A DNA stretch of 38,528 bases. Source: a virus. This document shows, piece by piece, positions 21,182-38,528 of the stretch. Every line of letters begins with the position of its first letter. The first letter of the stretch is position 1. The translations under genes and the position numbers were made by a program. The notes under the pieces were generated by a model. It had not been told where the DNA came from and searched no databases. It worked only from the letters and a program-made list of their open reading frames with translations. The stretch spans positions 1 through 38,528 of IMG/VR virus record IMGVR_UViG_3300021959_000004, one strand, 5' to 3'.

Positions 21182-22406
21182 TTAGTTTTTGTGCTTGTTT
21201 TAAACTAAGATCTTTGTTTTCTCTAACCATTATTTGTGCTTGGGTAGATAAATTATTTTCTAAGTCAAAATTATCTTTTAATATCTGGTCTTGTACTGTT
21301 TTAGGATACTCAACCTCTTCAAAATCTACAGCAAATTCTTCAGGTAGGTCTATTCCATTATAAGATGCTATAACACGCTCTACATTATAAAAATCTTTCT
21401 CATACAATCTCCATAATGCAATATCATCATAATAGTCTTCTTTTCTTTCCATATCTTTAATCATAAGGGATATACCACTAGGTACTTCTCCGCCTGATTC
21501 TGCCCAGGTCACCCACAAATGATTATTCATAGCAATTAATTCCATTTGAAACTTTATGTTCTGTATACCTTCGAGAATATTGCCTTGTGGGCTTGTTATA
21601 TTATAAGCACCTTCATCACCCATGTCTAAAATTGTATCTGAACCACTTCTTACCAATGCTTGGTCAGAATTAAGACCCGTAACCCAAGGTTGTCCAAACA
21701 TATTAAATCTCATGCCTAAATTCATTTCTGTAAGAGCTATATTTGTTTGCTCATTACAGTTAACTATGTCTGATGCTCCCTCTACAAAGAAAGAATCAAT
21801 TTGATCTTCTCTATGCGTAAAAACAAAAGGAATAATACCATATGGGTTTTCTGTTTCTTCAATCATCTTTCCATCTTCATTCATAATGCCATACTTCTCA
21901 TTATCCCAATATTCCCATTGTAAATTTTCGGCATTTGATAAATCTGCTGTGCTATGTAGTAATGGATATATTATAGCACTTGGCTGAAAAGGGTCATCTT
22001 CAAAATATGTTTCAAAATAATAAATAGGCCTATAGTCAAAAACACCATTATCTCTCCAATGAACTCTATTGGCAATTGTACCAATTAACCTAGTCATTCT
22101 CTCTGAATGTTTCATTCTAACATCTTTTGTTACTGTTAACTCTTCATATCTTTCAGTTCCTTTACCAACATTTCTTTTAGCACCTAAACTATATATCCTG
22201 CTAATTTTGTTAATAAATTTTCTAGTAAAATTAGTTAAAGTTGGAGGAATTTCATTAAAAGCATCGCCATTAAAATACCTCATAATATACTGGTCTGTTG
22301 AAACCCCTGAGTAATAATCTAAGTGTTTTCTAATTTCATTTCTTCTAGAGTGAGACATCATAAGTTTTGTCTCTAATAACTTATCTTTTAACATTTTTTC
22401 AATCAT
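21051..22406 (-). CDS. Portal protein
   Basis: 451 aa; ATG with AAGGA 7 nt upstream, overlapping the large terminase stop by 4 nt. N-terminal 'RRNEIRKHLDYYSG' and 'FNEIPPTLTNFTRKFINKI', then beta-rich clip/stem part, 'FVFTHREDQIDSFF', 'SDIVNCNEQTNIALTEM' and a long C-terminal helical region with Gln-rich end. This is the arrangement of phage portal proteins, which form the dodecameric ring through which DNA enters the head. Position directly after the large terminase confirms it. Confidence 0.85.
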   Translation of the reverse strand: MIEKMLKDKLLETKLMMSHSRRNEIRKHLDYYSGVSTDQYIMRYFNGDAFNEIPPTLTNFTRKFINKISRIYSLGAKRNVGKGTERYEELTVTKDVRMKHSERMTRLIGTIANRVHWRDNGVFDYRPIYYFETYFEDDPFQPSAIIYPLLHSTADLSNAENLQWEYWDNEKYGIMNEDGKMIEETENPYGIIPFVFTHREDQIDSFFVEGASDIVNCNEQTNIALTEMNLGMRFNMFGQPWVTGLNSDQALVRSGSDTILDMGDEGAYNITSPQGNILEGIQNIKFQMELIAMNNHLWVTWAESGGEVPSGISLMIKDMERKEDYYDDIALWRLYEKDFYNVERVIASYNGIDLPEEFAVDFEEVEYPKTVQDQILKDNFDLENNLSTQAQIMVRENKDLSLKQAQKLIDDNGKTNEKRKQQSIFNQFRQGAGQNQQFRSQVPGDDSRDNK

Positions 22407-23716
22407 CTTTGTATCCTTCTCATTTCTTTATTTTTCATTGGGAATCTATTAATTATAAAATACCTAAAAGCATCGTTTCCATGATCATGAAAACCATCTT
22501 TTAAAGGTTCTTCTCGAATAGGTTTGCCATCTTGGGCTTCAGGGTATCTATACTCTTCAAAGTCTTCAATTACTTCCTTGCAATTCTTATGTACATGAAT
22601 CCTTCTTGTACCATCGGCACTTTCAAAAAACCCTCTAGTATAAGACACACTATTAACGATATTGCGACTCATTCTATTTCTTGTAAATAATACTCTAATA
22701 CCACTTTTTCTAAATATCTCCATATCTCCAGCTCCGCTTTGTCCTTGAACATTTGCTCCCGCTGGGTCACCATAATAAGACATAATTGGGTATCCTTTTA
22801 TCTTAATCATTTTTATTAAGTCTTCAGTTTTAATATTTTGTTTATGTAATATGCAATCAAACACTCTAATATGGTCTATATTACCGTCAAATTGGGTCTG
22901 TATGAAGAGAACTGCTGGCTGCCTATACCCAAAGTCAATTGTGCAAAATGTAGGCAAATTAGGGTCATATGGAAAGTCTCCTACATCTAAATCTCTATGA
23001 AAGTTCCAAACCTTACCTTCAAACACAGAAAACTCTGCTCCAAACTCTTGACCAAAAAGTTCTTTTGACATATTTCTTTTACGTTCTACAATTGCAGGAT
23101 CTTCTAATCCTAAAGGAAATTCATGTTGATTTTTCCAGGATGGTGAAGTATAGCTATTCCATTCTTCATCTTGACTGCCTAGTTTATATAAATCATATAT
23201 CCAATTTCTACCTTCAGGTGTTGTAATAAATAAAACTTTACCTTTTCTGCCAGCTACAGTAGGAGATAAGTACATATCCCAAATCTTTTTATTCATTTTG
23301 GCTACCTCATCAATTACGAGTAGGTCAAGTCCCTCCCCCACTAATGAATCCGCATTATCTGCCGACATCCCCTCAACAGTAGTTCCCCATTTAAAACGAA
23401 TGTACATATCTTTTTCAGATGCTTTATCTACATCTTCCCCATGACCTACAACCATTCGTTGCCATATTTCTCTAAATATAAGCCTAGCCTTGCGATAAGA
23501 CATACCTACAACCCAAATACGTTTATCTGGTTGAGAGGCTACGTAGGTAGCTTCCATAGCACTAGCCCAAGTCTTGCCAAACCTTCTTCCACATACAATT
23601 ACATGAAATCTAGCATCTTGTTTTTCAGGATAGTGCAAAGCTAATTGCCCGTCATGTGGTTCATAGTTTAAATAGTTAAACCACTTTTTCTTAAATTCGT
23701 AATTTTTTTCTTGCAT
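22403..23716 (-). CDS. Terminase large subunit
   Basis: 437 aa. ATPase: Walker A 'CGRRFGKTWAS' (near residue 42), Walker B 'LDLLVIDEVA' (near 128), coupling motif 'LFITTPEG'. Nuclease (RNase H-like): 'TIDFGYRQ' (near 256), 'YYGDPAGA' (near 320) and 'FHDHGNDAFRY' near the end, giving the acidic triad. It pumps and cuts DNA into the head. There is no SD; a TACAAT -10 about 10 bp upstream suggests a leaderless or nearly leaderless mRNA. It heads the leftward packaging/head operon. Confidence 0.95.
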   Translation of the reverse strand: MQEKNYEFKKKWFNYLNYEPHDGQLALHYPEKQDARFHVIVCGRRFGKTWASAMEATYVASQPDKRIWVVGMSYRKARLIFREIWQRMVVGHGEDVDKASEKDMYIRFKWGTTVEGMSADNADSLVGEGLDLLVIDEVAKMNKKIWDMYLSPTVAGRKGKVLFITTPEGRNWIYDLYKLGSQDEEWNSYTSPSWKNQHEFPLGLEDPAIVERKRNMSKELFGQEFGAEFSVFEGKVWNFHRDLDVGDFPYDPNLPTFCTIDFGYRQPAVLFIQTQFDGNIDHIRVFDCILHKQNIKTEDLIKMIKIKGYPIMSYYGDPAGANVQGQSGAGDMEIFRKSGIRVLFTRNRMSRNIVNSVSYTRGFFESADGTRRIHVHKNCKEVIEDFEEYRYPEAQDGKPIREEPLKDGFHDHGNDAFRYFIINRFPMKNKEMRRIQR

Positions 23717-24311: not shown

Positions 24312-25208
24312 ATGGCTAAACATTATCAAGGTAGTCCAGTAACGACTACAACAGATCAGCACTTTATTCCAGAAATTTGGGCTGATGGAATTTATAAATA
24401 TTTTGAACGTAAAACTGTCTTTCGTGGATTAGTTGATGACTACTCTGCACTTGTAAGCGGTAAAGGCTATGGAGATGCAATTAACATCCCAGAAATGAGT
24501 CTTATTTCAGCTACAGGTAAAGATGCGGGTGCAGATGTAACTTACGATGCAACTGCAACCACAACAACTCAGTTATCAATTAATAAACACAAATACGTAG
24601 CAAAATTATTTGAGGATGTAGCATTAATTCAGTCAGAAGCTGATTTGGTAGCTAAGTATTCAAGAATGATGGGCGAAGCTCTTGCTCGTCAAGTTGATGC
24701 TGATATTTGGGCTGAGTTAGATGGTCTTAATGATTCTCAAGCTTTGTCTGCTGACGACACCCTAACAGCTGCAGTTTTTGAAGCTGCTCTTGCTGCTCTT
24801 GGTGAAGCTGAAATCCCTTATATGGATGGCGAATGTGCAATGGTTGTTAATCCAACTCTGTTTGCTGATATTTTAAACCCATCTGCTGGTATTGCTCAGT
24901 ACTTCATTAGAAATGATGCAGTCGGAGAAGGTAACCGAGGACTTAGGTCTGGAATGGTTGGCTCACTTTATGGTATAGATGTATATATGTCTAACACTGT
25001 AGCTACTGGTGGTAACGCTTCTGTTATACCTGGAGCTATTTTCCATAAGTCAGCTTGTGCTTTTGCTTCACAGCAAGAAGTTAGAGTTCAGAGTGAATAC
25101 TCTGTCGATGCTCTTGGTACAAAAGTCGTAAGTGACTTATTGTATGGTGTGAAGTTAATTGACGATTCAGACAATAAAAAAGGTATTAAGTTTACTAACG
25201 TAGCTTAA
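24312..25208 (+). CDS. Major capsid protein
   Basis: 298 aa. 'HFIPEIWADGIYKYFERKTVFRG' (given here in part: 'FIPEIWADGIYKYF'), 'GYGDAINIPEM', 'KYVAKLFEDVALIQSE', 'LARQVDADIWAEL' and 'GSLYGIDVYMSNTV' are the pattern of HK97-fold coat proteins of the T7/P22-like sequence group (P domain near residue 230). Placed straight after the scaffold gene and followed by a hairpin. Very likely the main shell protein. Confidence 0.88.
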   Translation: MAKHYQGSPVTTTTDQHFIPEIWADGIYKYFERKTVFRGLVDDYSALVSGKGYGDAINIPEMSLISATGKDAGADVTYDATATTTTQLSINKHKYVAKLFEDVALIQSEADLVAKYSRMMGEALARQVDADIWAELDGLNDSQALSADDTLTAAVFEAALAALGEAEIPYMDGECAMVVNPTLFADILNPSAGIAQYFIRNDAVGEGNRGLRSGMVGSLYGIDVYMSNTVATGGNASVIPGAIFHKSACAFASQQEVRVQSEYSVDALGTKVVSDLLYGVKLIDDSDNKKGIKFTNVA

Positions 25209-25510: not shown

Positions 25511-25855
25511 ATGGCAGATACTCATACTTATTCAGTACAAGAAGCACTAAACACTACAGTTGGGGGAGAATGGACAGTAGCATCCGCAGGGACTGCTGGT
25601 AGTTCAGCCGCTGTAACTAACACAACACATAAAAGTTTAAAATCAGCTACTGGCCTTTTAGGGGTCTATAGTGCTGTTGAAATATATTTTAATTTCTCAG
25701 CATCGGCTACAGATGTAAATGCATCAAACGATATGATTATACCTAAAAATACTTTAATGTTTTTAACAGTACCAAGAGGGCTAGGGCTAACAATTAGTTT
25801 TAATTACAACTCGACCTCAACAACAACTGGTGCAGTAAGATTGGTGGAAGTATAA
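25511..25855 (+). CDS. Small Ser/Thr-rich virion protein (decoration or fibre-associated, putative)
   Basis: 114 aa, ATG with GAGGAAG 5 nt upstream. Beta-rich: 'YSVQEALNTTVGGEW', 'AVEIYFNFSASATD', 'MFLTVPRGLGLTI', 'TGAVRLVEV'. Such a sequence suits a beta-sandwich cement or trimer-forming protein. The stop overlaps the start of the large fibre (TAATG), so they are translated together. No exact family. Confidence 0.5.
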   Translation: MADTHTYSVQEALNTTVGGEWTVASAGTAGSSAAVTNTTHKSLKSATGLLGVYSAVEIYFNFSASATDVNASNDMIIPKNTLMFLTVPRGLGLTISFNYNSTSTTTGAVRLVEV

Positions 25856-28800
25856 TGATTGGTGGAATGGGGAGTGCCGTAACTCCTGACTTAAGCAAAG
25901 GCGGTGAAATAGATGGTGATCTTGTAATAACTGGCGATTTTAAAGTTGAGGGTGCTGGTAGTTTTGCTTATGATGAGATAATCGAGGGTACATTACAAAT
26001 TACTGGTTCTAACGCATACATTGATGTTTTAGATACAGATAGTAATTTAAAAGTAAGTATTAGGGGTGGCGATAGTGTTGGTGCTATTGGTACATATTCA
26101 AATCATCCATTAAGTATTAGAACAAACTCAACAGAAGTCATACATCTTACTTCAGCAGGACTGGTCGGGATTGGTGGAACGCCAAGTGGTGCAAAACTTC
26201 AAATAGCACAAAGTGCAGATAGTGAAGGATTAAAAATAACTGGCTACGATGACCGCAACGATAAACACGCTAATTTATATATTACTAGCGGTGGTGATTT
26301 TGATATAACAGCATCAGGTCATGTTTCAATTAATGGTGGTGGTAACATTTATATGTATGACTATCTTATGTTGCAAGATAGACTTACAAAGACTGGTGCT
26401 GGAACTTTACAATTTGGCGGTACTTATGATGTAGATATGCACTTTCTTGGAACTGGTGATGCTGTAGTTATGGCTATTGATAACGGCACTAAACGAGTTG
26501 GCATAGGAATTACATCTGATATTGACCATGAATTAGATGTCGAAGGCGATATAAGAATAAGAAATGCAATACATTCTTTTGCTACAGATAATAGAGGATT
26601 TACAAGAGAGTGGTTAGCCTTTAATGAAGGCACTCCAACTTATAAAACAAGCACAGATAGTAAATTTCATAAATTTCAAAATTTTAGTGGTACAACCATT
26701 ATGTCTATTGGTGGTAGTAACAATAGAGTCGGCATTGGAACAGCCTCGCCCTCAGAAAAGCTCCATGTTTCAGAAGGTGAAATTAAAATTGAGCATAGCA
26801 CTACTGGAAGAATGTTAATACAAGGTGGTACTAGAGCTGATATAATAATGACAGATACTGGTGGTGGCGGAAATACTAAAAAAATACAAATGGTTACAGA
26901 AGCTGATGCTTTTAAAATTAGGTCTTTAACAGATGCTGGAGATGCTGGTACAGAAAGAATGCATTTTGATTTAACAAATAATCGCATTGGAATTGGCACA
27001 ACCTCGCCCTCAGAAGCTCTCCATGTAGAAGGTAAAGCCTACATAAGAAGAACTGGAACTGCGACAGCACATGGCGATACAGATTTATTTATAGCAGATT
27101 CAACTTCTAGTTCTTCAACTGCTCAACTACAAATATTAGGCGGTACTGAAGGTTCAAGTAATCTTTATTTCTCAGATACAGCTTCGTATTCAGTCGGTGG
27201 CATAAAGTACGCCCATAACTCCAATCATATGTATTTTAGGTTAAATGATGCCGATAAAATGACATTAAATAATACTGGACTTACAGTTGCTGGGGCTTTT
27301 TCTGTATCGGGTGGTAATGTAGAAATCAGAAAATCATATCCCGATTTAAATCTAAGAGCTAATGATGAACAAAGAATTAATTTTGTTGATGATGGTAATG
27401 GCGGTCAAAGTGGAATAAAAAATAACGCTGGTACAATGAAGTTTTATGGTAGTAGTTCTTCTAGTGGTTTCAGATTAATTCTTGATGACAACTCTCGCAT
27501 TAGTCTTAGTAATAATGATAGTGGTTCTTCAAATACAGTATTTGGTAAAGGTGCTGGATTAGATTTAGCGAGTGGTGGAACTTTTAATGCTTTTTTTGGA
27601 GAAGATGCTGGTGCGAATGTTACAACTGGTGATTTAAACACATCGCTTGGTTACAGAGCTGATTTTTATAATGTTACTGGAAGCAATAATGTTGCTGTAG
27701 GTTATGCAACTATGAGAGGAGCTAGTGGTGAATCTCATAGTAATAATACTGCTGTAGGTTATGCTAGTATGCTTGGAGCAACAACTGGAAGCTCAAATGT
27801 AGCAGTTGGGTACTCGGCATTAGCTGGTTGTACAACAGGTCAAAATAATACAGTTCTTGGAGCAAATGCTGGTTACGCACTTACTACAGATTACAATGTT
27901 GTTGCTATTGGTAAAGATGCTTACAAGGCAAATGATACGACTAATGGACACGATGGTACTGCAAGTAATGGCAGTGGGAACATGGCTATTGGTTATAGAT
28001 CAATGATGGGTTTAAATGATGTTAATGCTTTTAGAAATACTATGGTTGGTTATGAAACAATGCTTGATTGTGGTTCATCTAATCCATCAGATAATACTGC
28101 GTTAGGTTTTAGAGCATTAAAAAGTCTTAATAATAATAGTGCAGATAGAAATACTGCAATAGGTTCTTCATCTCTTTTTTCTCTTACTTCTGGCGGTCAA
28201 AATGTCGCTATCGGCACAAGTACATTAAGTAATTTAACAACTACAAATAATATGGTTGCGATTGGGCATAATGCTGGTTTAGCAGTTAATCACGGTGCGG
28301 CAGAAGGTGGAACTTTTGTAGGCTATGAAGCAGGGAAAGCAGTTGGAAGTGCTGGTCATACTACTGCTATTGGCTACCAAGCATTAATGACTGTACCCTC
28401 AAATGGTTATAATACAGCAGTTGGTTCTCAAGCATTAAAACTTGCAACTGGAATAAGTAATACAGCGGTTGGTGCTACTGCCTTACTAAATGTTACGACT
28501 GGAGCAAATAATACTGCTGTTGGAAGACAAGCTGGAGATGCAATAAATCAAGGGCAAGATAATTCACTTTTTGGAATGCAATCAGGTACTTCGTTACAAC
28601 TTGGAAGATATAATAGTGCAATAGGCTACCAATCTTTAAATAGTGAGCAACATGGTAGCTATTCAACTGCTCTTGGTTACAAAGCATTGTATGCTCAAGT
28701 ACATGGTACAGTAAATGCAGACACTGGAAATACAGGCGTTGGAAATCAAGCTGGATTTTATAATGTAACTGGAGCTAATAATACTTATTTAGGTTCAAAA

Positions 28801-30954
28801 GCTGGTTATGGAGCATCAGGGCAATCAAATAGCAATAATACGGCAGTTGGTTCTAATTCAATGCTTTCAATCACAACTGGCGGTAATAATACTGCAGTAG
28901 GAACAGCCTCTTTAGATGCTTTAACAATCGGGCATAGCAATGTGGCTTTAGGTCAATCAGCTCTAAGTTCTGAAGTTGTAGCTTATGGAATTACAGCGAT
29001 TGGATATGGAGTTTTTAGTAATGCCAATCGTAATGCAAGTTCAGGGAGTGCGGTTCTTAATGCTCAAGTTGGAATTGGATACGTAGCTGGAGCATCTACA
29101 ACTACTGGAAATACAAATACATTTATAGGAGCATACTCAGCTTTTTCTAATACAACTGGTTCAAGAAATGTTGTTCTTGGATATGCTGCTTTTTATGCTC
29201 CAACAACTGCAACTGATTGTGTTGTTCTAGGAAATGATGCTATGGGTTCTGCTTCAAGTGGTCAAGCATATAGCGGAGTAGTTGCAATAGGTAAAAATGC
29301 AGTAAAAGGAAGTGGAAGTACAACAACTGGAATAAATGGTACAGTTGGAATTGGAATGGATGCTCTTACTTCTCTTACTTCAGGTGGCGGTAATTTAGCC
29401 ATTGGTTATACTGCTGGTTCAACTATAACTACTGCTTCATTTAATACTTATGTTGGGCACGAATCAGGTGTAGGAGACGGAACGCAACACTCAAGAAATA
29501 CTGGACTTGGTTATCAATCATTAAAGGTCGCTACCTCAGGAGAAAATAATACTGCGATTGGAAATCAATCTTTATTAGCTTTGACAACTGGTGGTAATAA
29601 TGTAGCAATAGGTTCTAATGCTCTACCAAAAAACACTACAGCATCAAATAATGTAGCTATTGGAATAAATTCAATGCTAGATATTACGACTGGGCAAAGA
29701 AATGTGGCATTGGGTTCTTATACGATGGCAATGAATCAATCGGGAAACGGAGCTAAAACTTCAAATGATAACGTATTTATAGGATATAATGTAGGCGGTG
29801 GTTCTTGGACTGCTTACAGTTCTCAATACAATGTAGCTATTGGTTCTTTTGCACTTAATCACAATTTAAACGGAGCTAATCAAAATGTAGTAATTGGCTA
29901 TAAAGCATTGACTGTTGGAACGACTGTTGGTGGAAATGTAGCATTGGGATATCAAGCAATGTTAACGACTACCGATGCAGATCACTGTGTTTTTATAGGT
30001 ACTAATGCTGGAGCTGGAGTAATTACATCAGCTGGGAATGGAACAGTAGGAATAGGTTACTCTGCCCTTACTGCCCTTACGAGTGGTGCTGAAAATACTG
30101 CAGTGGGGTATAATGCAGGGTTGGATACTACTACTTCTAATTATTCTACTATGGTAGGCTATGAAGCTGGTGCAAATCTTACGACTGGGTTATCAAATAC
30201 ATTCGTAGGCAGAAGATCGGGATATGGAAATGACTCTACTGCATTAACTGGAAGAGATAATGTTGCATTAGGGAATAGCTCACTTCTTAATGTTACAAAT
30301 GCTTCGTGGAATACAGCTATTGGTGGTGCTAGTTTAGGGAGTCTTGTAGGTGGTGGTTATAATACTGCAATTGGTTATCTATCAGGTGACAACATAACAA
30401 CAGGAACTAACAATATTTGTATTGGGATGCATTCAAACGCATCAGCTAATGATGTTACTTTTGAAATTGTTATTGGTTCAGGTGTTAATTATGCTGATAA
30501 CTTTACTGGAGCTGGTACTGAAACAGTTAGAATAGGTAGAGCATCTGACTTTATTACAAATGACTTTGGTGAAAATGCTACTTGGACACACTCTTCTGAT
30601 AAAAGAATTAAAAAAGATATAGAAGATTCTGCATTAGGTCTTGATTTTATTAATGATTTAAGACCAGTAACATTTAAGAAAAAAGCACCAAGTGAATACC
30701 CTCAAGAGTTTGAGCAATACGATGCCAATACTACAGAGCGTAAAAATCCCGATAGAAAACATTATGGATTTATCGCTCAAGAAGTTAAAGAAGCAATGGA
30801 TAATGCTGGTCATTCTGAATTTCCAGTTTGGAAAGAAAACAGAGATGGTATGCAAGAACTTGGTGAGACAGAATTAATTACACCATTAATTAAAGCAGTT
30901 CAAGAGTTATCTGCTGAAGTAAAACAACTCAAACAACAATTAGAGGACAAGTAA
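25855..30954 (+). CDS. Giant trimeric tail fibre with YadA-head-like repeats and S74 intramolecular chaperone
   Basis: 1699 aa. Residues 1-560: beta-rich shaft with repeated 'IGIGTxSPSExLHVxG' motifs (near 292, 382). Residues about 560-1545: dozens of repeats of about 20-30 residues with core 'NTAVGY' or 'NVAIG' and 'TTG', like the head of trimeric YadA/Hia adhesins (beta-roll). Residues 1581-1699: Peptidase_S74 chaperone starting 'SDKRIKKDIED', with 'YGFIAQEV' and a coiled-coil end 'VKQLKQQLEDK'; cleavage just before the Ser would release about 119 aa after trimer folding. Main host-binding fibre. It is by far the largest gene and sits next to capsid genes rather than tail genes. Confidence 0.9.
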   Translation: MIGGMGSAVTPDLSKGGEIDGDLVITGDFKVEGAGSFAYDEIIEGTLQITGSNAYIDVLDTDSNLKVSIRGGDSVGAIGTYSNHPLSIRTNSTEVIHLTSAGLVGIGGTPSGAKLQIAQSADSEGLKITGYDDRNDKHANLYITSGGDFDITASGHVSINGGGNIYMYDYLMLQDRLTKTGAGTLQFGGTYDVDMHFLGTGDAVVMAIDNGTKRVGIGITSDIDHELDVEGDIRIRNAIHSFATDNRGFTREWLAFNEGTPTYKTSTDSKFHKFQNFSGTTIMSIGGSNNRVGIGTASPSEKLHVSEGEIKIEHSTTGRMLIQGGTRADIIMTDTGGGGNTKKIQMVTEADAFKIRSLTDAGDAGTERMHFDLTNNRIGIGTTSPSEALHVEGKAYIRRTGTATAHGDTDLFIADSTSSSSTAQLQILGGTEGSSNLYFSDTASYSVGGIKYAHNSNHMYFRLNDADKMTLNNTGLTVAGAFSVSGGNVEIRKSYPDLNLRANDEQRINFVDDGNGGQSGIKNNAGTMKFYGSSSSSGFRLILDDNSRISLSNNDSGSSNTVFGKGAGLDLASGGTFNAFFGEDAGANVTTGDLNTSLGYRADFYNVTGSNNVAVGYATMRGASGESHSNNTAVGYASMLGATTGSSNVAVGYSALAGCTTGQNNTVLGANAGYALTTDYNVVAIGKDAYKANDTTNGHDGTASNGSGNMAIGYRSMMGLNDVNAFRNTMVGYETMLDCGSSNPSDNTALGFRALKSLNNNSADRNTAIGSSSLFSLTSGGQNVAIGTSTLSNLTTTNNMVAIGHNAGLAVNHGAAEGGTFVGYEAGKAVGSAGHTTAIGYQALMTVPSNGYNTAVGSQALKLATGISNTAVGATALLNVTTGANNTAVGRQAGDAINQGQDNSLFGMQSGTSLQLGRYNSAIGYQSLNSEQHGSYSTALGYKALYAQVHGTVNADTGNTGVGNQAGFYNVTGANNTYLGSKAGYGASGQSNSNNTAVGSNSMLSITTGGNNTAVGTASLDALTIGHSNVALGQSALSSEVVAYGITAIGYGVFSNANRNASSGSAVLNAQVGIGYVAGASTTTGNTNTFIGAYSAFSNTTGSRNVVLGYAAFYAPTTATDCVVLGNDAMGSASSGQAYSGVVAIGKNAVKGSGSTTTGINGTVGIGMDALTSLTSGGGNLAIGYTAGSTITTASFNTYVGHESGVGDGTQHSRNTGLGYQSLKVATSGENNTAIGNQSLLALTTGGNNVAIGSNALPKNTTASNNVAIGINSMLDITTGQRNVALGSYTMAMNQSGNGAKTSNDNVFIGYNVGGGSWTAYSSQYNVAIGSFALNHNLNGANQNVVIGYKALTVGTTVGGNVALGYQAMLTTTDADHCVFIGTNAGAGVITSAGNGTVGIGYSALTALTSGAENTAVGYNAGLDTTTSNYSTMVGYEAGANLTTGLSNTFVGRRSGYGNDSTALTGRDNVALGNSSLLNVTNASWNTAIGGASLGSLVGGGYNTAIGYLSGDNITTGTNNICIGMHSNASANDVTFEIVIGSGVNYADNFTGAGTETVRIGRASDFITNDFGENATWTHSSDKRIKKDIEDSALGLDFINDLRPVTFKKKAPSEYPQEFEQYDANTTERKNPDRKHYGFIAQEVKEAMDNAGHSEFPVWKENRDGMQELGETELITPLIKAVQELSAEVKQLKQQLEDK

Positions 30955-31278
30955 ATGAAAAACTATAAAGCAATGAAGTCTGCTAAAAGCTGGTCTGTAA
31001 AAAAGGCTAAAGTTGTTGATTCTAAAGCAGTTTCTGAAGTCAAAGATGACGATGGAAATGTTGTTAGAGAAGCACAAGCAGAAAAGTCACATGATGAATT
31101 ACAACTAGTTAAGAAGCAATTCGATGGAAGCACTGGTAAAGCACTGGATGACTCAGTTCAGTCTTATAGCTTAGAGCAAGTTGCTAGTGAAATCAGTCGC
31201 ATGAAAGCTAACATTAAGCAAATGCAAGATGAACAAGCTGACATGGAAGAACTAGAAAAAGATTTAAAAGCACTTTAA
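30955..31278 (+). CDS. Charged coiled-coil protein of unknown function
   Basis: 107 aa, ATG preceded by GAGG. Basic start 'MKNYKAMKSAKSWSVKKAK', then an acidic C-terminal coiled coil 'EISRMKANIKQMQDEQ', 'MEELEKDLKAL'. Directly follows the fibre. A chaperone or attachment factor for the fibre is possible; this is inference from position only. Confidence 0.55.
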   Translation: MKNYKAMKSAKSWSVKKAKVVDSKAVSEVKDDDGNVVREAQAEKSHDELQLVKKQFDGSTGKALDDSVQSYSLEQVASEISRMKANIKQMQDEQADMEELEKDLKAL

Positions 31279-31301: not shown

Positions 31302-31529
31302 ATGGCTAAAAAAGAAAAAAACGAGCCTCAAAAGCTAAACTTATTTGACAAAGAGTATTTGTTGGATGACTTAACGGATGAGCAAAAAGCAATGGTAAAC
31401 CATATCGCAGATCTTGAGAATAAGATTAGTGGTACTGCGTTTAATCTTGACCAATTAACAGTTGGAAAAGAGGCTTTTATTTCAAGACTAAAAGATTCTT
31501 TAGAGTCTGAGGTAGAAGAGGAAAAGTAA
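31302..31529 (+). CDS. Small acidic helical protein (DUF6447-like)
   Basis: 75 aa, strong AGGAG upstream. 'LNLFDKEYLLDDLTDEQKAMVNHIADLE' in part ('LLDDLTDEQKAMV'), then 'NLDQLTVGKEAFISRL'. This follows the pattern I recall for DUF6447, short helical phage proteins with 'L-x-D-L-T' and 'NLDQL'. Function unknown in that family too. Part of a string of small genes between fibre and lysis region. Confidence 0.55.
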   Translation: MAKKEKNEPQKLNLFDKEYLLDDLTDEQKAMVNHIADLENKISGTAFNLDQLTVGKEAFISRLKDSLESEVEEEK

Positions 31530-31816
31530 TGCTTGTTCGGAGATCTTCAAAGGGAAAAAAAATATACATCTTTAAACCAAGAACTAAAGAGAATGTCTCT
31601 TATAAGTTTAGTAAAGATGAAACAGTCTCTTTCGATGCTCAAAATAAGTCTTATATTGTAACAAGTGATGGGGCGGTAGTTAAGAGATCAGACTCTTGGA
31701 TTACCGCTCAATCCGCTTATGATATAGAATGTAAAAAACATTATGACGATACTACAGGTGCTATAAAAATAGGTAAACATACATTAGTAGATGGAGTAGC
31801 AACAGTTGTTAAGTAA
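31529..31816 (+). CDS. Small beta-rich protein of unknown function
   Basis: 95 aa; start overlaps the preceding stop (TAATG). 'GKKIYIFKPRTKENVSYKF', 'SYIVTSDGAVVKRSDSW' and 'GAIKIGKHTLVDGVAT' point to a beta domain. Its 3' end overlaps the prepilin-like gene by 11 bp. No family recognised. Confidence 0.5.
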   Translation: MLVRRSSKGKKIYIFKPRTKENVSYKFSKDETVSFDAQNKSYIVTSDGAVVKRSDSWITAQSAYDIECKKHYDDTTGAIKIGKHTLVDGVATVVK

Positions 31817-32300
31817 TAAAGGAAACAGTCTTGCTGAGTTCGCAGTTACTATGGCTATCATGGCTACTCTTGCAACTACTTCCGCTCCTGCTTTTAGTAG
31901 GATTGGTGAAGGTGCTAAAGCTAAACAAACTAAAGCTAATCTTGAGAAGATTGTTAAAGCATCTCAAATGTGGTATAATCAACAGATTGAAGTAAATGGT
32001 ATGGGTAAGTTTCCATCACAACCACATAGAACAGTTAGCATAGGAGAAGTTGTTGATTATAATAGTAATCGTAGAATAGAGGTAGATGAGATATTAAATG
32101 GCATCTATGTCCCAGTATTTAGTGATACTAGTTTTTTACATCTATTTGATAATGATACAATTAAATCACCTTATCAAGAAGGTAGGTATTTATATGCTAT
32201 AGTTGGTGGTTCTGGTACAGGAAACGCAATAGTTTCTCCAATCTTTGTAGTGGTAGATGAAGAGAATCCAGAAGATTTTTATAAATATTACAAACCATGA
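31806..32300 (+). CDS. Type IV prepilin/pseudopilin-like protein
   Basis: 164 aa. TTG start at 31806 with GGAG 9 nt upstream, the only in-frame choice after the stop at 31797. A 6-residue basic leader 'MLSNKG' is followed by 'NSLAEFAVTMAIMATLATTS', with Glu at mature position 5, the class III signal of type IV pilins (cut by a prepilin peptidase after Gly). Next comes 'AKAKQTKANLEKIVKASQMWY', the helix seen in pilins, and a globular domain with 'GRYLYAIVGG'. Phage genomes seldom carry one. It could be inserted into a host pilus or secretion system. Not a signal peptide of the normal type. Confidence 0.7.
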   Translation: MLSNKGNSLAEFAVTMAIMATLATTSAPAFSRIGEGAKAKQTKANLEKIVKASQMWYNQQIEVNGMGKFPSQPHRTVSIGEVVDYNSNRRIEVDEILNGIYVPVFSDTSFLHLFDNDTIKSPYQEGRYLYAIVGGSGTGNAIVSPIFVVVDEENPEDFYKYYKP

Positions 32301-32620
32301 GCGATGAGAAAACATACAGATCATATGGCATGGCAAAGATTGATGATAACTTTCGTATTAGTCTTAACATTAAGTGGCTTGGGCAGATTATTGTGGGAGT
32401 TGCTGTTATTGTGCTTGGCTACTTACGTATTGAAAATAGAATTGGAGAACTTGAGCGTAGAGTTAAATTATCTGATACCAGAATTGAAGAGCTTGTCAAT
32501 AAGCACATAAAAGAAGAAGAAGTTAAAATAACACATATGCAAGAACAGTTAGAATGGTATCAAACAGAATTAAACTTAAATCCCTTATCTTGGGGAAAGA
32601 AAAAAAGAAAGAGAAAGTAG
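32297..32620 (+). CDS. Membrane protein with coiled coil (lysis region)
   Basis: 107 aa, ATG overlaps the prepilin stop (ATGA). One transmembrane segment 'WLGQIIVGVAVIVLGYL' at residues 27-43, then a coiled coil 'IENRIGELERRVKLSDTRI' and a very basic end 'WGKKKRKRK'. This kind of i-spanin-like layout or a membrane adaptor is possible, but no lipoprotein partner is seen. Unknown function. Confidence 0.6.
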   Translation: MSDEKTYRSYGMAKIDDNFRISLNIKWLGQIIVGVAVIVLGYLRIENRIGELERRVKLSDTRIEELVNKHIKEEEVKITHMQEQLEWYQTELNLNPLSWGKKKRKRK

Positions 32621-32685
32621 TCTTAACAGAGGATGACTTTAATCATAATTACTTTATTAACAGAGAACTGCGGAGAACACGATAG
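32554..32685 (+). CDS. Possible 43-aa protein overlapping the membrane gene
   Basis: An open frame from ATG 32554 runs out of frame through the end of the 107-aa gene and ends at TAG that overlaps the next GTG start (TAGTG). It fills the 64-bp gap. The peptide is Lys/Arg-rich ('GKEKKKEKVVLTEDDF'). SD is weak. I give it low weight. Confidence 0.3.
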   Translation: MVSNRIKLKSLILGKEKKKEKVVLTEDDFNHNYFINRELRRTR

Positions 32686-33002
32686 TGGATTTTTTGGCAA
32701 TATATTCAGAAGCTGGTATGATAGGAGTTGTAGGGGCTATGTTTATGTTTATGGTTTACTCAATGAATAAACGAGGAAACGAACAAGCAGAATCACTACA
32801 AAATTTAAAAATAGAAAATAAAGGGCAAAGTGAAACACTTGAAAACATGGAAAGTATGGTTATTAAGCTTATTAACCGCTGGAATAAAAGTGACGACAAA
32901 CTTGACAGAAAGTTTGATTCACTTACGAAGGAAATTAATGATTTGGACAATCAAGTTTCGGAAATAAAAGGTAGTTTAAGTAGGGTAAATGGGAAACACT
33001 AA
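32685..33002 (+). CDS. Holin-like membrane protein with coiled coil
   Basis: 105 aa, GTG start with GCGGAG about 10 nt upstream. One transmembrane segment at residues 7-26 ('YSEAGMIGVVGAMFMFMVY'), then a long charged coiled coil ('LQNLKIENKGQSETLENME', 'EINDLDNQVSEIKGSL'). This layout is like BhlA/UviB-type single-span holins. The M15 endolysin lies about 900 bp downstream. Holin is a reasonable guess; not proven. Confidence 0.5.
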   Translation: MDFLAIYSEAGMIGVVGAMFMFMVYSMNKRGNEQAESLQNLKIENKGQSETLENMESMVIKLINRWNKSDDKLDRKFDSLTKEINDLDNQVSEIKGSLSRVNGKH

Positions 33003-33148
33003 TGGATAGTACAAAAGTAGCAATAGCAAGTATGGGAAATTACGGACTATCACTAACAAGCGTTAGTCTTACATTACAATGCTTAGTAGCAATAATGACA
33101 ATTATATATTTAGGATATAAAATAACAAATATAAGGAAATTAAAATGA
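33002..33148 (+). CDS. 48-aa membrane protein (lysis region)
   Basis: ATG at 33002 overlaps the stop of the previous gene (TAATG), and its TGA overlaps the next ATG by 4 nt. One hydrophobic segment 'SLTLQCLVAIMTIIYLGY' follows a short polar N-terminus; a basic end 'KITNIRKLK'. A candidate antiholin or second holin beside the 105-aa protein. Confidence 0.6.
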   Translation: MDSTKVAIASMGNYGLSLTSVSLTLQCLVAIMTIIYLGYKITNIRKLK

Positions 33149-33378
33149 GTAAAATAATATTAGCAGGAATTATAGACAAAGCTAAAGACCATATTGTAAA
33201 AGAATATGCAGATGGTATGATTGACCATGTGCAATCTGATGATTTTAAAGAATCTTTAGCAACAAGAATTAATAAAAAAATTGACATTCCTTTTGTAAGC
33301 GAAGAAAAAGAACAAATCTTTTTTGAAAAAGTTGTTGATTTAGTGACAGACATTATTGAAGGTATAGTTAAGAAATAA
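33145..33378 (+). CDS. 77-aa helical protein of unknown function
   Basis: ATG overlaps the previous stop (ATGA), AAGGAAA upstream. Amphipathic helices ('IIDKAKDHIVKEYADGMID', 'FFEKVVDLVTDIIEGIVKK'). No transmembrane segment of full length. Between membrane proteins and basic proteins of the lysis region. No family recognised. Confidence 0.55.
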   Translation: MSKIILAGIIDKAKDHIVKEYADGMIDHVQSDDFKESLATRINKKIDIPFVSEEKEQIFFEKVVDLVTDIIEGIVKK

Positions 33379-33662
33379 TGCCTAAAAAACGAGATCCTCG
33401 ATTAAAACGATTTGGTTTAAAGGGATTTAATAAACCTAAAAGAACAAGAGGGCATAAGACTAAATCTCATGTTGTTTTAGCAAAATCAGGTGGTAGAATA
33501 AAATTAATTAGGTTTGGACAGCAAGGCGTAAGTGGTGCTGGTAAAAAACCAAAAAGTGCTGCACAAAAAGCTAGACGTAAATCTTTTAAAGCTAGGCATA
33601 GAAAGAACATATCTAGGGGAAAAATGTCAGCAGCATATTGGTCAAATAAGGTAAAGTGGTAA
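33378..33662 (+). CDS. Very basic 94-aa phage protein (DUF5872-like)
   Basis: Start overlaps the previous stop (TAATG). About one third Lys/Arg. The C-terminal pattern 'IRFGQQGVSGAGKKPKSA', 'RRKSFKARH' and 'SRGKMSAAYWSNKVKW' is conserved in phage proteins I have seen labelled DUF5872 or hypothetical; function is not known. The charge suggests nucleic-acid binding, perhaps in the packaged head. It is the first of three highly basic small proteins in a row. Confidence 0.55.
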   Translation: MPKKRDPRLKRFGLKGFNKPKRTRGHKTKSHVVLAKSGGRIKLIRFGQQGVSGAGKKPKSAAQKARRKSFKARHRKNISRGKMSAAYWSNKVKW

Positions 33663-33796: not shown

Positions 33797-33882
33797 TGCC
33801 AAAAGGTAAAGGTTATGGCTTTGGGAAACCAAAATCAAAGAAAAAAAGAAAAGTTAAATCTAAGAAAAAAAAGAAGAAGTAA
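33796..33882 (+). CDS. 28-aa lysine-rich peptide
   Basis: ATG at 33796 to TAA at 33882, overlapping both neighbours by 1 nt. The peptide starts 'MPKGKGYGFGKPK' and ends in a run of Lys with Arg; more than half of its residues are basic. Like a protamine in composition. It directly precedes the endolysin and so could also be a translated leader for it. Confidence 0.5.
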   Translation: MPKGKGYGFGKPKSKKKRKVKSKKKKKK

Positions 33883-34259
33883 TGTATAGGTTTGGTAAAA
33901 GATCAAGAGAAAGACTTAAGGGAGTAAACCCTAAGTTAATAAATGTCTTAAACCAACTTATCAAAATAATGGATGTAACTGTTATTGAAGGGGTTAGGTC
34001 GCAAGAAAGACAAAATGAGTTAGTAGCAAAAGGGGCGAGTAAGACGAAGTATTCAAAGCATATTCAAGGCAAAGCTGTCGACCTTGCACCTTACCCCATT
34101 GATTGGAATGATAGAGATACATTTCATTATATGTGTGGCATGATTAGAGGTATTGCACTTCAAATGAAAGTTCCTGTAAGAGTTGGTTGTGATTGGGATG
34201 GCGATGGGCAAACTAAGGACAATAAATTTGATGACCTTGTTCATGTAGAGCTTGTATAA
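33882..34259 (+). CDS. Endolysin, peptidase M15 (L-Ala-D-Glu/D-Ala carboxypeptidase type)
   Basis: 125 aa. Zinc ligands in 'SKHIQGKAVDLAPYP' (S-x-H-x-x-G-x-A-x-D, residues 58-72) and 'DLVHVELV' (H-x-E at the end); substrate-binding 'GVRSQERQNELVAKG' near residues 38-52. This is a VanY/M15_4 peptidase that cuts the peptide stems of peptidoglycan for host lysis. No signal peptide, so it needs a holin; single-span membrane proteins lie upstream. Confidence 0.9.
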   Translation: MYRFGKRSRERLKGVNPKLINVLNQLIKIMDVTVIEGVRSQERQNELVAKGASKTKYSKHIQGKAVDLAPYPIDWNDRDTFHYMCGMIRGIALQMKVPVRVGCDWDGDGQTKDNKFDDLVHVELV

Positions 34260-37565: not shown

Positions 37566-38528
37566 ACAAGTAACAATTGAATTTAGAGCTGAAGACAAAG
37601 GTTTAGTTAATCAGCTTAAAAAACTTGACAACATATCAAAACAATTAACTAATACTCAAGATAAACTACATAATACAGAAAAAAAATCAACAAATTCTAA
37701 AGCCAAACAATTTCAACAATTAAATAAAAATTATATTGCAATACAAAAACTTAGACTATCTGTTTCTAAATTAGATTCTAACTTTGAAAACGCAAGAGTA
37801 TCTACTGAAACATTAACCAATGCATTAAAAGGTAATAAAAATGCAATGGCTTTGTTAAGATTGCAAACCTCTGCTCACATTGTTGAAATTAAAAAATATA
37901 ATGAATCCCTTAAAAATGCAAAAAATAGCACAGATAGATTTGGTAATGCACTAAATACTGCTGGTACAGGAACTAGAATATTAGGTGGAACATTTGCTGT
38001 ACTAAGATCTAAACTACTTTTATTTAACTTTGCAATGGGTTTAGGTATCAGAAAAATAGGTCATTTTGTTAATGAAGCATCTAAAGTCAATGCTATGGAA
38101 ACAGCTTTTAATACTTTAAGTGGTGGGGGTAGAAAAGCAACTGTAGCTATAGATAAGCTTACTAAAGCAACTGATGGTACTGTTTCTAAAATGGATTTAT
38201 TTCAACAAGCAAACAATGCTATGATATTAGGAGTAACAAAAAACTCTGATGAAATGGCTGAAATGTTTGATATGGCTCAGAGACTTGGTGATGCTTTAGG
38301 TAGGGATACTAGGTCTTCTATTGAATCACTAGTAACTGGTATTGGACGACAGTCTCGAATGATGTTAGATAATATTGGTATTATTGTTAAATCTGACGAG
38401 GCTTATAAAGTATATGCTGAAACATTAAAGAAAAATGTTGATGATTTAACAGTTATGGAAAGAAAACAAGCATTTTTAAATGCTACTATGGAAGCTGCTA
38501 AAGATAAAATTTCTAAATTACCACCAGA
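37555..38528 (+). CDS. Tape measure protein, N-terminal part
   Basis: ATG at 37555, inside the end of the chaperone gene. The first 300 or so residues before the sequence end: 'MANKQVTIEFRAEDKGL', a coiled coil with 'LKKLDNISKQLTNTQDKL', then 'FAVLRSKLLLFNFAMGLGI' (hydrophobic), 'METAFNTLSGGG' and 'SIESLVTGIGRQSRMM', typical of tape measures. The frame continues in the first 1831 bases through the 87-bp overlap, total 905 aa. Confidence 0.88.
   Translation, partial: MANKQVTIEFRAEDKGLVNQLKKLDNISKQLTNTQDKLHNTEKKSTNSKAKQFQQLNKNYIAIQKLRLSVSKLDSNFENARVSTETLTNALKGNKNAMALLRLQTSAHIVEIKKYNESLKNAKNSTDRFGNALNTAGTGTRILGGTFAVLRSKLLLFNFAMGLGIRKIGHFVNEASKVNAMETAFNTLSGGGRKATVAIDKLTKATDGTVSKMDLFQQANNAMILGVTKNSDEMAEMFDMAQRLGDALGRDTRSSIESLVTGIGRQSRMMLDNIGIIVKSDEAYKVYAETLKKNVDDLTVMERKQAFLNATMEAAKDKISKLPP
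38442..38528 (+). repeat. Terminal direct repeat (87 bp), also at 1-87
   Basis: The last 87 bases equal the first 87 base for base, and both lie inside the same gene in the same frame. This is the overlap of a circular or circularly permuted genome, not a biological repeat in two genes. Unit length 38441 bp. Confidence 0.95.

Follow-up and report, generated by a model that had tools for sequence, protein, structure and literature searches.

A 38,528-nt marine virus genome from IMG/VR (record IMGVR_UViG_3300021959_000004; "the window" means this whole stretch of DNA) encodes a type IV prepilin of its own. There is a strong case, from sequence comparison, that the protein is a full-length, compacted homologue of the pilins in the type IV pilus operons of SAR406 (Marinimicrobia), which are uncultured bacteria. 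Our leading explanation, in which we have middling confidence, is that it is a captured SAR406 pilin which the phage compacted and keeps for use against its host's own pilus.

A prepilin gene in the late operon

The gene lies at 31806-32300 on the + strand and encodes a precursor of 164 amino acids (158 when mature). The precursor begins with a class III leader, MLSNKG (31806-31823, +), with Gly at -1. It is followed by NSLAEFAVTMAIMATLATTSAPAFS (mature residues 1-25; 31824-31898, +), with Glu at +5 and Pro at +22. A preliminary description of this DNA had described a basic leader of six residues ending in Gly; the length and the Gly are correct, but just one residue of MLSNKG is basic. The other signals that it listed can be read directly from the ORF, at exactly these coordinates and on this strand: NSLAEF puts Glu at mature position 5, and the expected hydrophobic helix and pilin-type amphipathic helix appear as a charge-free hydrophobic stretch, Pro at +22, and then an amphipathic helix. 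In other words, the ORF has the short leader, Gly-1, Glu+5, and uncharged hydrophobic segment of a type IV pilin or pseudopilin.

The start codon is TTG, with GGAG 9 nt upstream, and there is no other possible start upstream of the motif. Several homologues (L024, L032, L036, L046, L057, and L067) have ATG at or near this position. A scan of all of the window found no second class III prepilin ORF, and when the same criteria were applied to 200 base-shuffled and 100 triplet-shuffled windows, no such ORF turned up. Judging from the ORF, its viral and host homologues, and a structural model, this is a real gene that encodes a class III prepilin.

The window ends in exact 87-bp direct repeats (1-87 and 38442-38528, both +), so it is probably a complete, circularly assembled genome. 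It includes a terminase large subunit (22403-23716, - strand; phrog_2, 1e-42; Terminase_6N), a major capsid protein (24312-25208, +; phrog_267, 1e-44), and a fibre or spike with a C-terminal S74 chaperone domain (25855-30954, +; Pfam PF13884, phrog_4636). Three small genes fill the interval between the fibre and the pilin (30955-31278, 31302-31529, and 31529-31816; all +); these are present at that site in some relatives only. Downstream, all on the + strand, are TM107 (32297-32620; one transmembrane helix and a coiled coil, a possible i-spanin), TM105 (32685-33002; also one transmembrane helix and a coiled coil, with a weak Rz-like match), a 48-aa membrane protein of holin-like size (33002-33148), two small conserved genes (33145-33378 and 33378-33662, the second being phrog_7595), and an M15-type endolysin (33882-34259; phrog_465, 2e-38; with conserved gene order).

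The prepilin gene overlaps the upstream gene by 11 nt (31806 versus 31816) and overlaps TM107 by ATGA (32297-32300), so it is part of the late operon. A scan for promoters and terminators found nothing above shuffled sequences that would make it a separate unit. The proposed location, in the late operon between the fibre and the lysis genes, was thus correct: the S74 fibre or spike region is on the 5' side, the lysis genes are on the 3' side, and both neighbouring genes are overlapped.

A late gene beside a fibre gene could encode a component of the virion, perhaps placed near the fibre, that is built on the pilin fold or resembles a pilus. We consider this the least probable explanation, and a very doubtful one. 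Both the insertion into the membrane and the site for prepilin peptidase are strictly conserved, and the virions of tailed phages assemble in the cytoplasm. The earlier suggestion of a pilin fold in the virion found no support, as the prepilin signal and the membrane helix are kept without exception.

Conservation and turnover among viral relatives

Scans of IMG/VR identified 90-91 relatives of the prepilin, and we kept the best 80, which are 74-99% identical. The peptide patterns that find these relatives are mostly outside of the Gly/Glu5 signature (FAVTMAIM overlaps it). The preliminary description had proposed that its reading should be dropped if close homologues lacked the signature and the hydrophobic helix; the signature is kept in all of the best 80 of the 90-91 viral relatives. 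The length and sequence of the leader vary among relatives, while the cleavage junction is constant. Substitution patterns indicate that the gene is under selection in viruses: across 72 distinct viral coding sequences, pN/pS = 0.20, and pN is lowest in the helix core.

In nearly all contigs with enough sequence, TM107 and TM105 are 3' of the prepilin and on the same strand. In most contigs, these are followed by the 48-aa membrane protein, small basic proteins, and the M15 endolysin. We used TM105 as an anchor to ask whether the pilin was present, and we called it absent only if there was at least 1.8 kb of upstream sequence. The pilin was present at 51 TM105-anchored loci and absent at 22. 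At one of the loci that lack the pilin (L358), the same three small genes are present upstream, and the next genes after them are those for a 38-aa lipoprotein and TM107. Given these counts and the arrangement at L358, the prepilin is an accessory gene in a fixed slot ahead of the lysis genes. It has been gained and lost repeatedly at one place, which is the pattern expected of an accessory gene for host interaction.

Two other features of these loci vary. At 41 of 75 pilin loci, the pilin and TM107 are separated by a gene for a small lipoprotein that has a lipobox, and this gene is also found at 5 loci without the pilin (examples with the lipoprotein are L102, L116, L118, and L358). The lipoprotein may act as an o-spanin, or it may block a receptor as Llp does. 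Also, collagen-like (Gly-X-Y) fibres are encoded upstream in 7 of 15 relatives without the pilin (L320, L327, L334, L342, L350, L357, and L360) versus 2 of 36 with it. We do not view this as a link between the fibres and the absence of the pilin, because the contrast was picked post hoc (P = 0.0014, Fisher exact test) and is uninformative once relatedness is allowed for.

Because the prepilin is directly 5' of TM107, TM105, the 48-aa membrane protein, and the endolysin in nearly all contigs, with overlapping reading frames and often with the small lipoprotein in between, its N-terminus might be a mere membrane anchor. The protein would then act in lysis or envelope disruption, together with the neighbouring transmembrane proteins. 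We think that this is decidedly unlikely. The same lysis genes occur without the pilin in the 22 relatives, the homology to true host pilins extends through the head, and the cleavage signature is kept even though an anchor would not need one.

Homology to the pilins of SAR406

We scanned 84,980 GTDB genomes for the degenerate motif GNSLAEF[AT]VT and found it in just 8 contigs. These are from Marinimicrobia, from bacteria of the same phylum group (which reappear in the phylum search described below), and from one archaeal MAG. We rejected the archaeal pilin, which is from MAG SP88 (L249, PAYZ01000004.1, labelled Euryarchaeota): 39 relatives in its family had no match, and the contig, which has SAR406-type pilins, is probably misbinned. 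C-terminal peptides of the window protein had no relative in the GTDB genomes.

In SAR406, the genes that precede the pilin with the motif encode an A24 prepilin peptidase (one SAR406 prepilin peptidase is at L246:6701-7519), a T2SSE/MshEN ATPase, a sigma-54 regulator, and a T2SSF platform protein, and there is also an Mrr-type gene upstream. The ATPase is PilB-like and the platform protein is PilC-like. GFTLIEL pilins are nearby, and the host cluster has many pilins in tandem.

A profile of the phage family matched proteins in about 16 of 245 genomes of the phylum (E = 1e-22 to 1e-26). In most of these genomes, the N-terminal and C-terminal parts matched separately, within one frame. By BLASTP, the window protein is 33% identical to the pilin of one of these genomes (G139) over its full length (122 bits). 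In the helix core, 20-21 of 25 residues are identical between the window protein and SAR406 pilins, yet just 5-11 of about 22 shared core residues use the same codon. This implies that the capture is old and that the core has been held by selection on the protein, rather than being recently transferred. The C-terminal block SPYQEGRYLYAIVGGSGTGNAIVSPIFVVVDEENPEDFYKYYKP (32166-32297, +) is also kept in the host pilins, so the homology runs the full length of the protein. Gly-1, Glu5, and Pro22 are invariant in an alignment of both phage families (the second is described below) and the host pilins, but this is partly circular because part of the set was found by the motif itself.

Overall, the window protein resembles the GNSLAEF/GQSLAEF pilins of SAR406 (Fidelibacterota) in its leader junction, Glu5, Pro22, core, and SPYQ.G.Y / SPI..V.D block. 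It differs in size, with 158 mature residues instead of about 197-243, at about 33% identity. It also differs in location: the SAR406 pilins are in type IV pilus operons, while the window pilin is in a phage late operon without assembly genes, which is a matter of location and not of homology.

Because pilin homology to SAR406 is found in two phage lineages, the host is probably SAR406. Weak support comes from a Marinimicrobia assembly, AG-470-O07 (the style of this name is that of single-cell genomes), which includes a phage contig (L292; G006:C43, 8516 bp) with relatives of the terminase (38%) and of the gene at the portal position (26%). The 245 genomes of the phylum contain no close relative of the window phage, just distant matches to the terminase and capsid, the best of which (38-39%) is in a contig of AG-470-O07, and using TM105 as a tracer of the host found nothing close in these genomes. 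To our knowledge, SAR406 is a phylum with few assigned viruses. These comparisons offer a way to connect many marine phages, a group that comprises dozens of IMG/VR contigs, to this phylum by sequence.

Profile and structure comparisons

The preliminary description had suggested a search with the pilin methylation domain (PF07963), and this did not succeed: the window protein scored 13.3-15.4 bits, below the curated cut-off of 21.2, and the best family member had E = 0.0024. Two SAR406 host pilins likewise have no match to PF07963, so the model is too narrow for this lineage. When we used hhalign to compare the phage family to canonical GFTLIEL-type pilins, the first 70 columns were in register (probability 93%, E = 2.6e-7).

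An AlphaFold2 model from 51 sequences had a pLDDT of 81 and a pTM of 0.70 (the single-sequence model had a pLDDT of 37). It has a continuous helix of 58 residues (7-64), which contains the invariant Pro at +22 (P28 of the precursor), and then a head, which is the helix-plus-head architecture of a pilin. The structure prediction that had been proposed as a check thus favours a pilin in its long helix and head, but a pilin-like fold of the head was not recovered: Foldseek searches of PDB and BFVD with this model found no match with E <= 0.001. The insignificant matches include 3fu1 (GspG), 4d40, and 7t31.

Compared to canonical pilins and pseudopilins (PF07963, TIGR02532; PilA, MshA, GspG), the window family has the same architecture. 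It differs in having NSLAEF instead of FTLIEL, in scoring below the PF07963 cut-off, and in having a head without a Foldseek match. We also considered a Tad/Flp pilin. EF is present at +5/+6, but the mature protein has 158 residues and a separate head, so we rejected this assignment. Taken together, the full-length homology to SAR406 pilins, the in-register profile match, and the model with a long helix and a head uphold the original identification as type IV pilin-like.

Might the protein be a pseudopilin that redirects the host's type II secretion system, for instance to export phage or host enzymes? The T2SSE, T2SSF, and A24 peptidase proteins of SAR406 do not, by themselves, separate type IV pili from type II secretion, and the best weak profile matches include GspG and PilA alike. 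On the other hand, no gene for a secreted cargo was recognised beside the pilin, and the host cluster has many tandem pilins. We consider redirected secretion to be quite improbable.

Pilin cassettes in T4-like phages

When IMG/VR was scanned for the same motif, a longer pilin (about 194-204 mature residues) was also found, on contigs that reach 132 kb. (Because the motif was used to find these pilins, its conservation among them does not count as independent evidence.) The neighbours of the longer pilins include UvsX, gp32 (PF08804), SbcCD-like gp46/47, and PhoH, which marks the contigs as T4-like phages. Their pilins come in rows of two to four: a GNSLAEF-type pilin and then one to three GFTLIEL pilins. 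(In L203, the row is cut off by the edge of the locus.) The extra pilins match phrog_3433. In L178, a three-gene cassette has the same order as in host genome G139, with identities of 69%, 51%, and 33%. In a phylogenetic tree, the window family is monophyletic (100/100, with a long stem), while the T4-like pilins form one clade in no bootstrap tree. This indicates that phages captured the pilin at least twice.

The T4-like phages also encode proteins of about 215 amino acids (L178:11874-12518, - strand; L137:5766-6425, - strand; and L203:4289-4924, + strand) whose N-terminal 45 residues resemble the N-terminus of the host's PilB/GspE ATPase (hhalign probability 94%, E = 1.5e-7, from 3 and 2 sequences; by pairwise BLAST, the similarity is weak). 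These proteins are far shorter than the ATPase, and the copy in L178 has no ATPase match in Pfam. They are possibly decoys or regulators.

A broader and more tentative idea, which we think could be right but would not favour, is that two unrelated kinds of SAR406 phage have each appropriated the type IV pilin of their host and use it to remodel the pilus during infection. One kind would use a single shortened subunit, and the other would use two to four pilins in tandem plus a stand-alone PilB N1-like domain. If so, then phages and hosts would interact in a way that has not yet been described as a class, which could be called pilus takeover by substitute subunits.

How a phage pilin might act on the host's pilus

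We detected no prepilin peptidase, assembly ATPase, or platform protein (A24, T2SSE, or T2SSF) in the end-redundant window, so the prepilin must use the host's machinery. If the phage uses its pilin against the host's pilus, the prepilin would be made with the late genes and inserted into the inner membrane, where the host's prepilin peptidase would cut it after Gly-1. The mature phage pilin would join the pool of subunits from which the host builds its GNSLAEF pilus. The part of the protein that packs inside the filament is nearly identical to that of the host's subunit, and the head is different and shorter, which suits a subunit that co-assembles or competes. The phage subunit would either co-polymerise and change the surface of the pilus, or it would stall assembly. 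The likeliest benefit would be that other phages are kept from adsorbing via the pilus, or that progeny are spared from pili on infected cells or debris.

Entry into the host's pilus to block superinfection, as had been proposed, is plausible and is the best mechanism that we can suggest from these comparisons. Two points count against exclusion. First, proteins for exclusion, T5 Llp among them, are usually made early, and a position in the late operon does not suit early exclusion. Second, the role of the SAR406 pilus as a phage receptor is itself putative.

Instead of excluding other phages, the phage pilin might keep up or change the activity of the pilus. Burst and spread would then improve through altered attachment, aggregation, sinking, or DNA uptake. 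The T4-like sets of two to four pilins look more like supplying a pilus than poisoning it, and the head domains of the phage pilins retain conserved features of the host's heads. However, the 38-kb phages have a single pilin whose head is shortened, and its gene is in a late operon, when lysis is about to occur and the behaviour of the cell matters little. We view this explanation as unlikely but worth keeping in mind. Under our preferred explanation, use of the pilin against the host's pilus, viruses of SAR406 with their own pilins suggest that the pili of infected cells are being either rebuilt or blocked, and the pilus is indicated as a contested structure in SAR406.

Relation to known systems

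The outcome that we propose, a disabled pilus and the exclusion of other phages, is known from the Pseudomonas phage proteins Tip, Aqs1, and Zip, which disable pili as superinfection exclusion (PMC11656802). Those proteins bind PilB or PilZ in the cytoplasm and none of them is a pilin, unlike the window protein. T5 Llp is a phage envelope protein that blocks a receptor, and it also acts against adsorption to fragments of lysed cells (PMC9586334). The window pilin would similarly be a phage-encoded envelope protein that inactivates a receptor, but Llp is a lipoprotein that acts on FhuA and is encoded by an early gene, while the window protein is a late pilin.

Pilins in phages are already known as annotations. 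Pilin genes in phages were annotated before as phrog_3433 ("pilin", moron/host takeover), with no function described; the window protein does not match this family. We found no description, in the open-licence literature, of phages with the host's own operon pilin or with sets of pilins, nor any functional study of them. A candidate in the T4-like Aeromonas phage AhFM11 (L362:2821-3279) was rejected as a prepilin because its GFTLIELMVLIVILGILASIAIPAF (GFTLIEL) segment lies at residue 78 and is preceded by an N-terminal domain, unlike a prepilin signal.

The closest parallel in cultured phages is in Vibrio phages 033B, GH32, and VpKK5, which encode an MshA-like prepilin that is annotated as "hypothetical protein" or not at all. 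(In 033B, it is at L361:4001-4474, which is OP331229.1 39233-39706.) This prepilin scores 35.8 bits against TIGR02532, well above the cut-off of 16.3. As in the window, a tailed phage has a single prepilin of the host's type. Unlike the window pilin, the Vibrio phage pilin is of the MshA-like lineage, is in another phage and host, and is encoded near the terminase genes. Together, these cases, cultured Vibrio phages included, point to a general and overlooked strategy in which phages encode host-type pilins.
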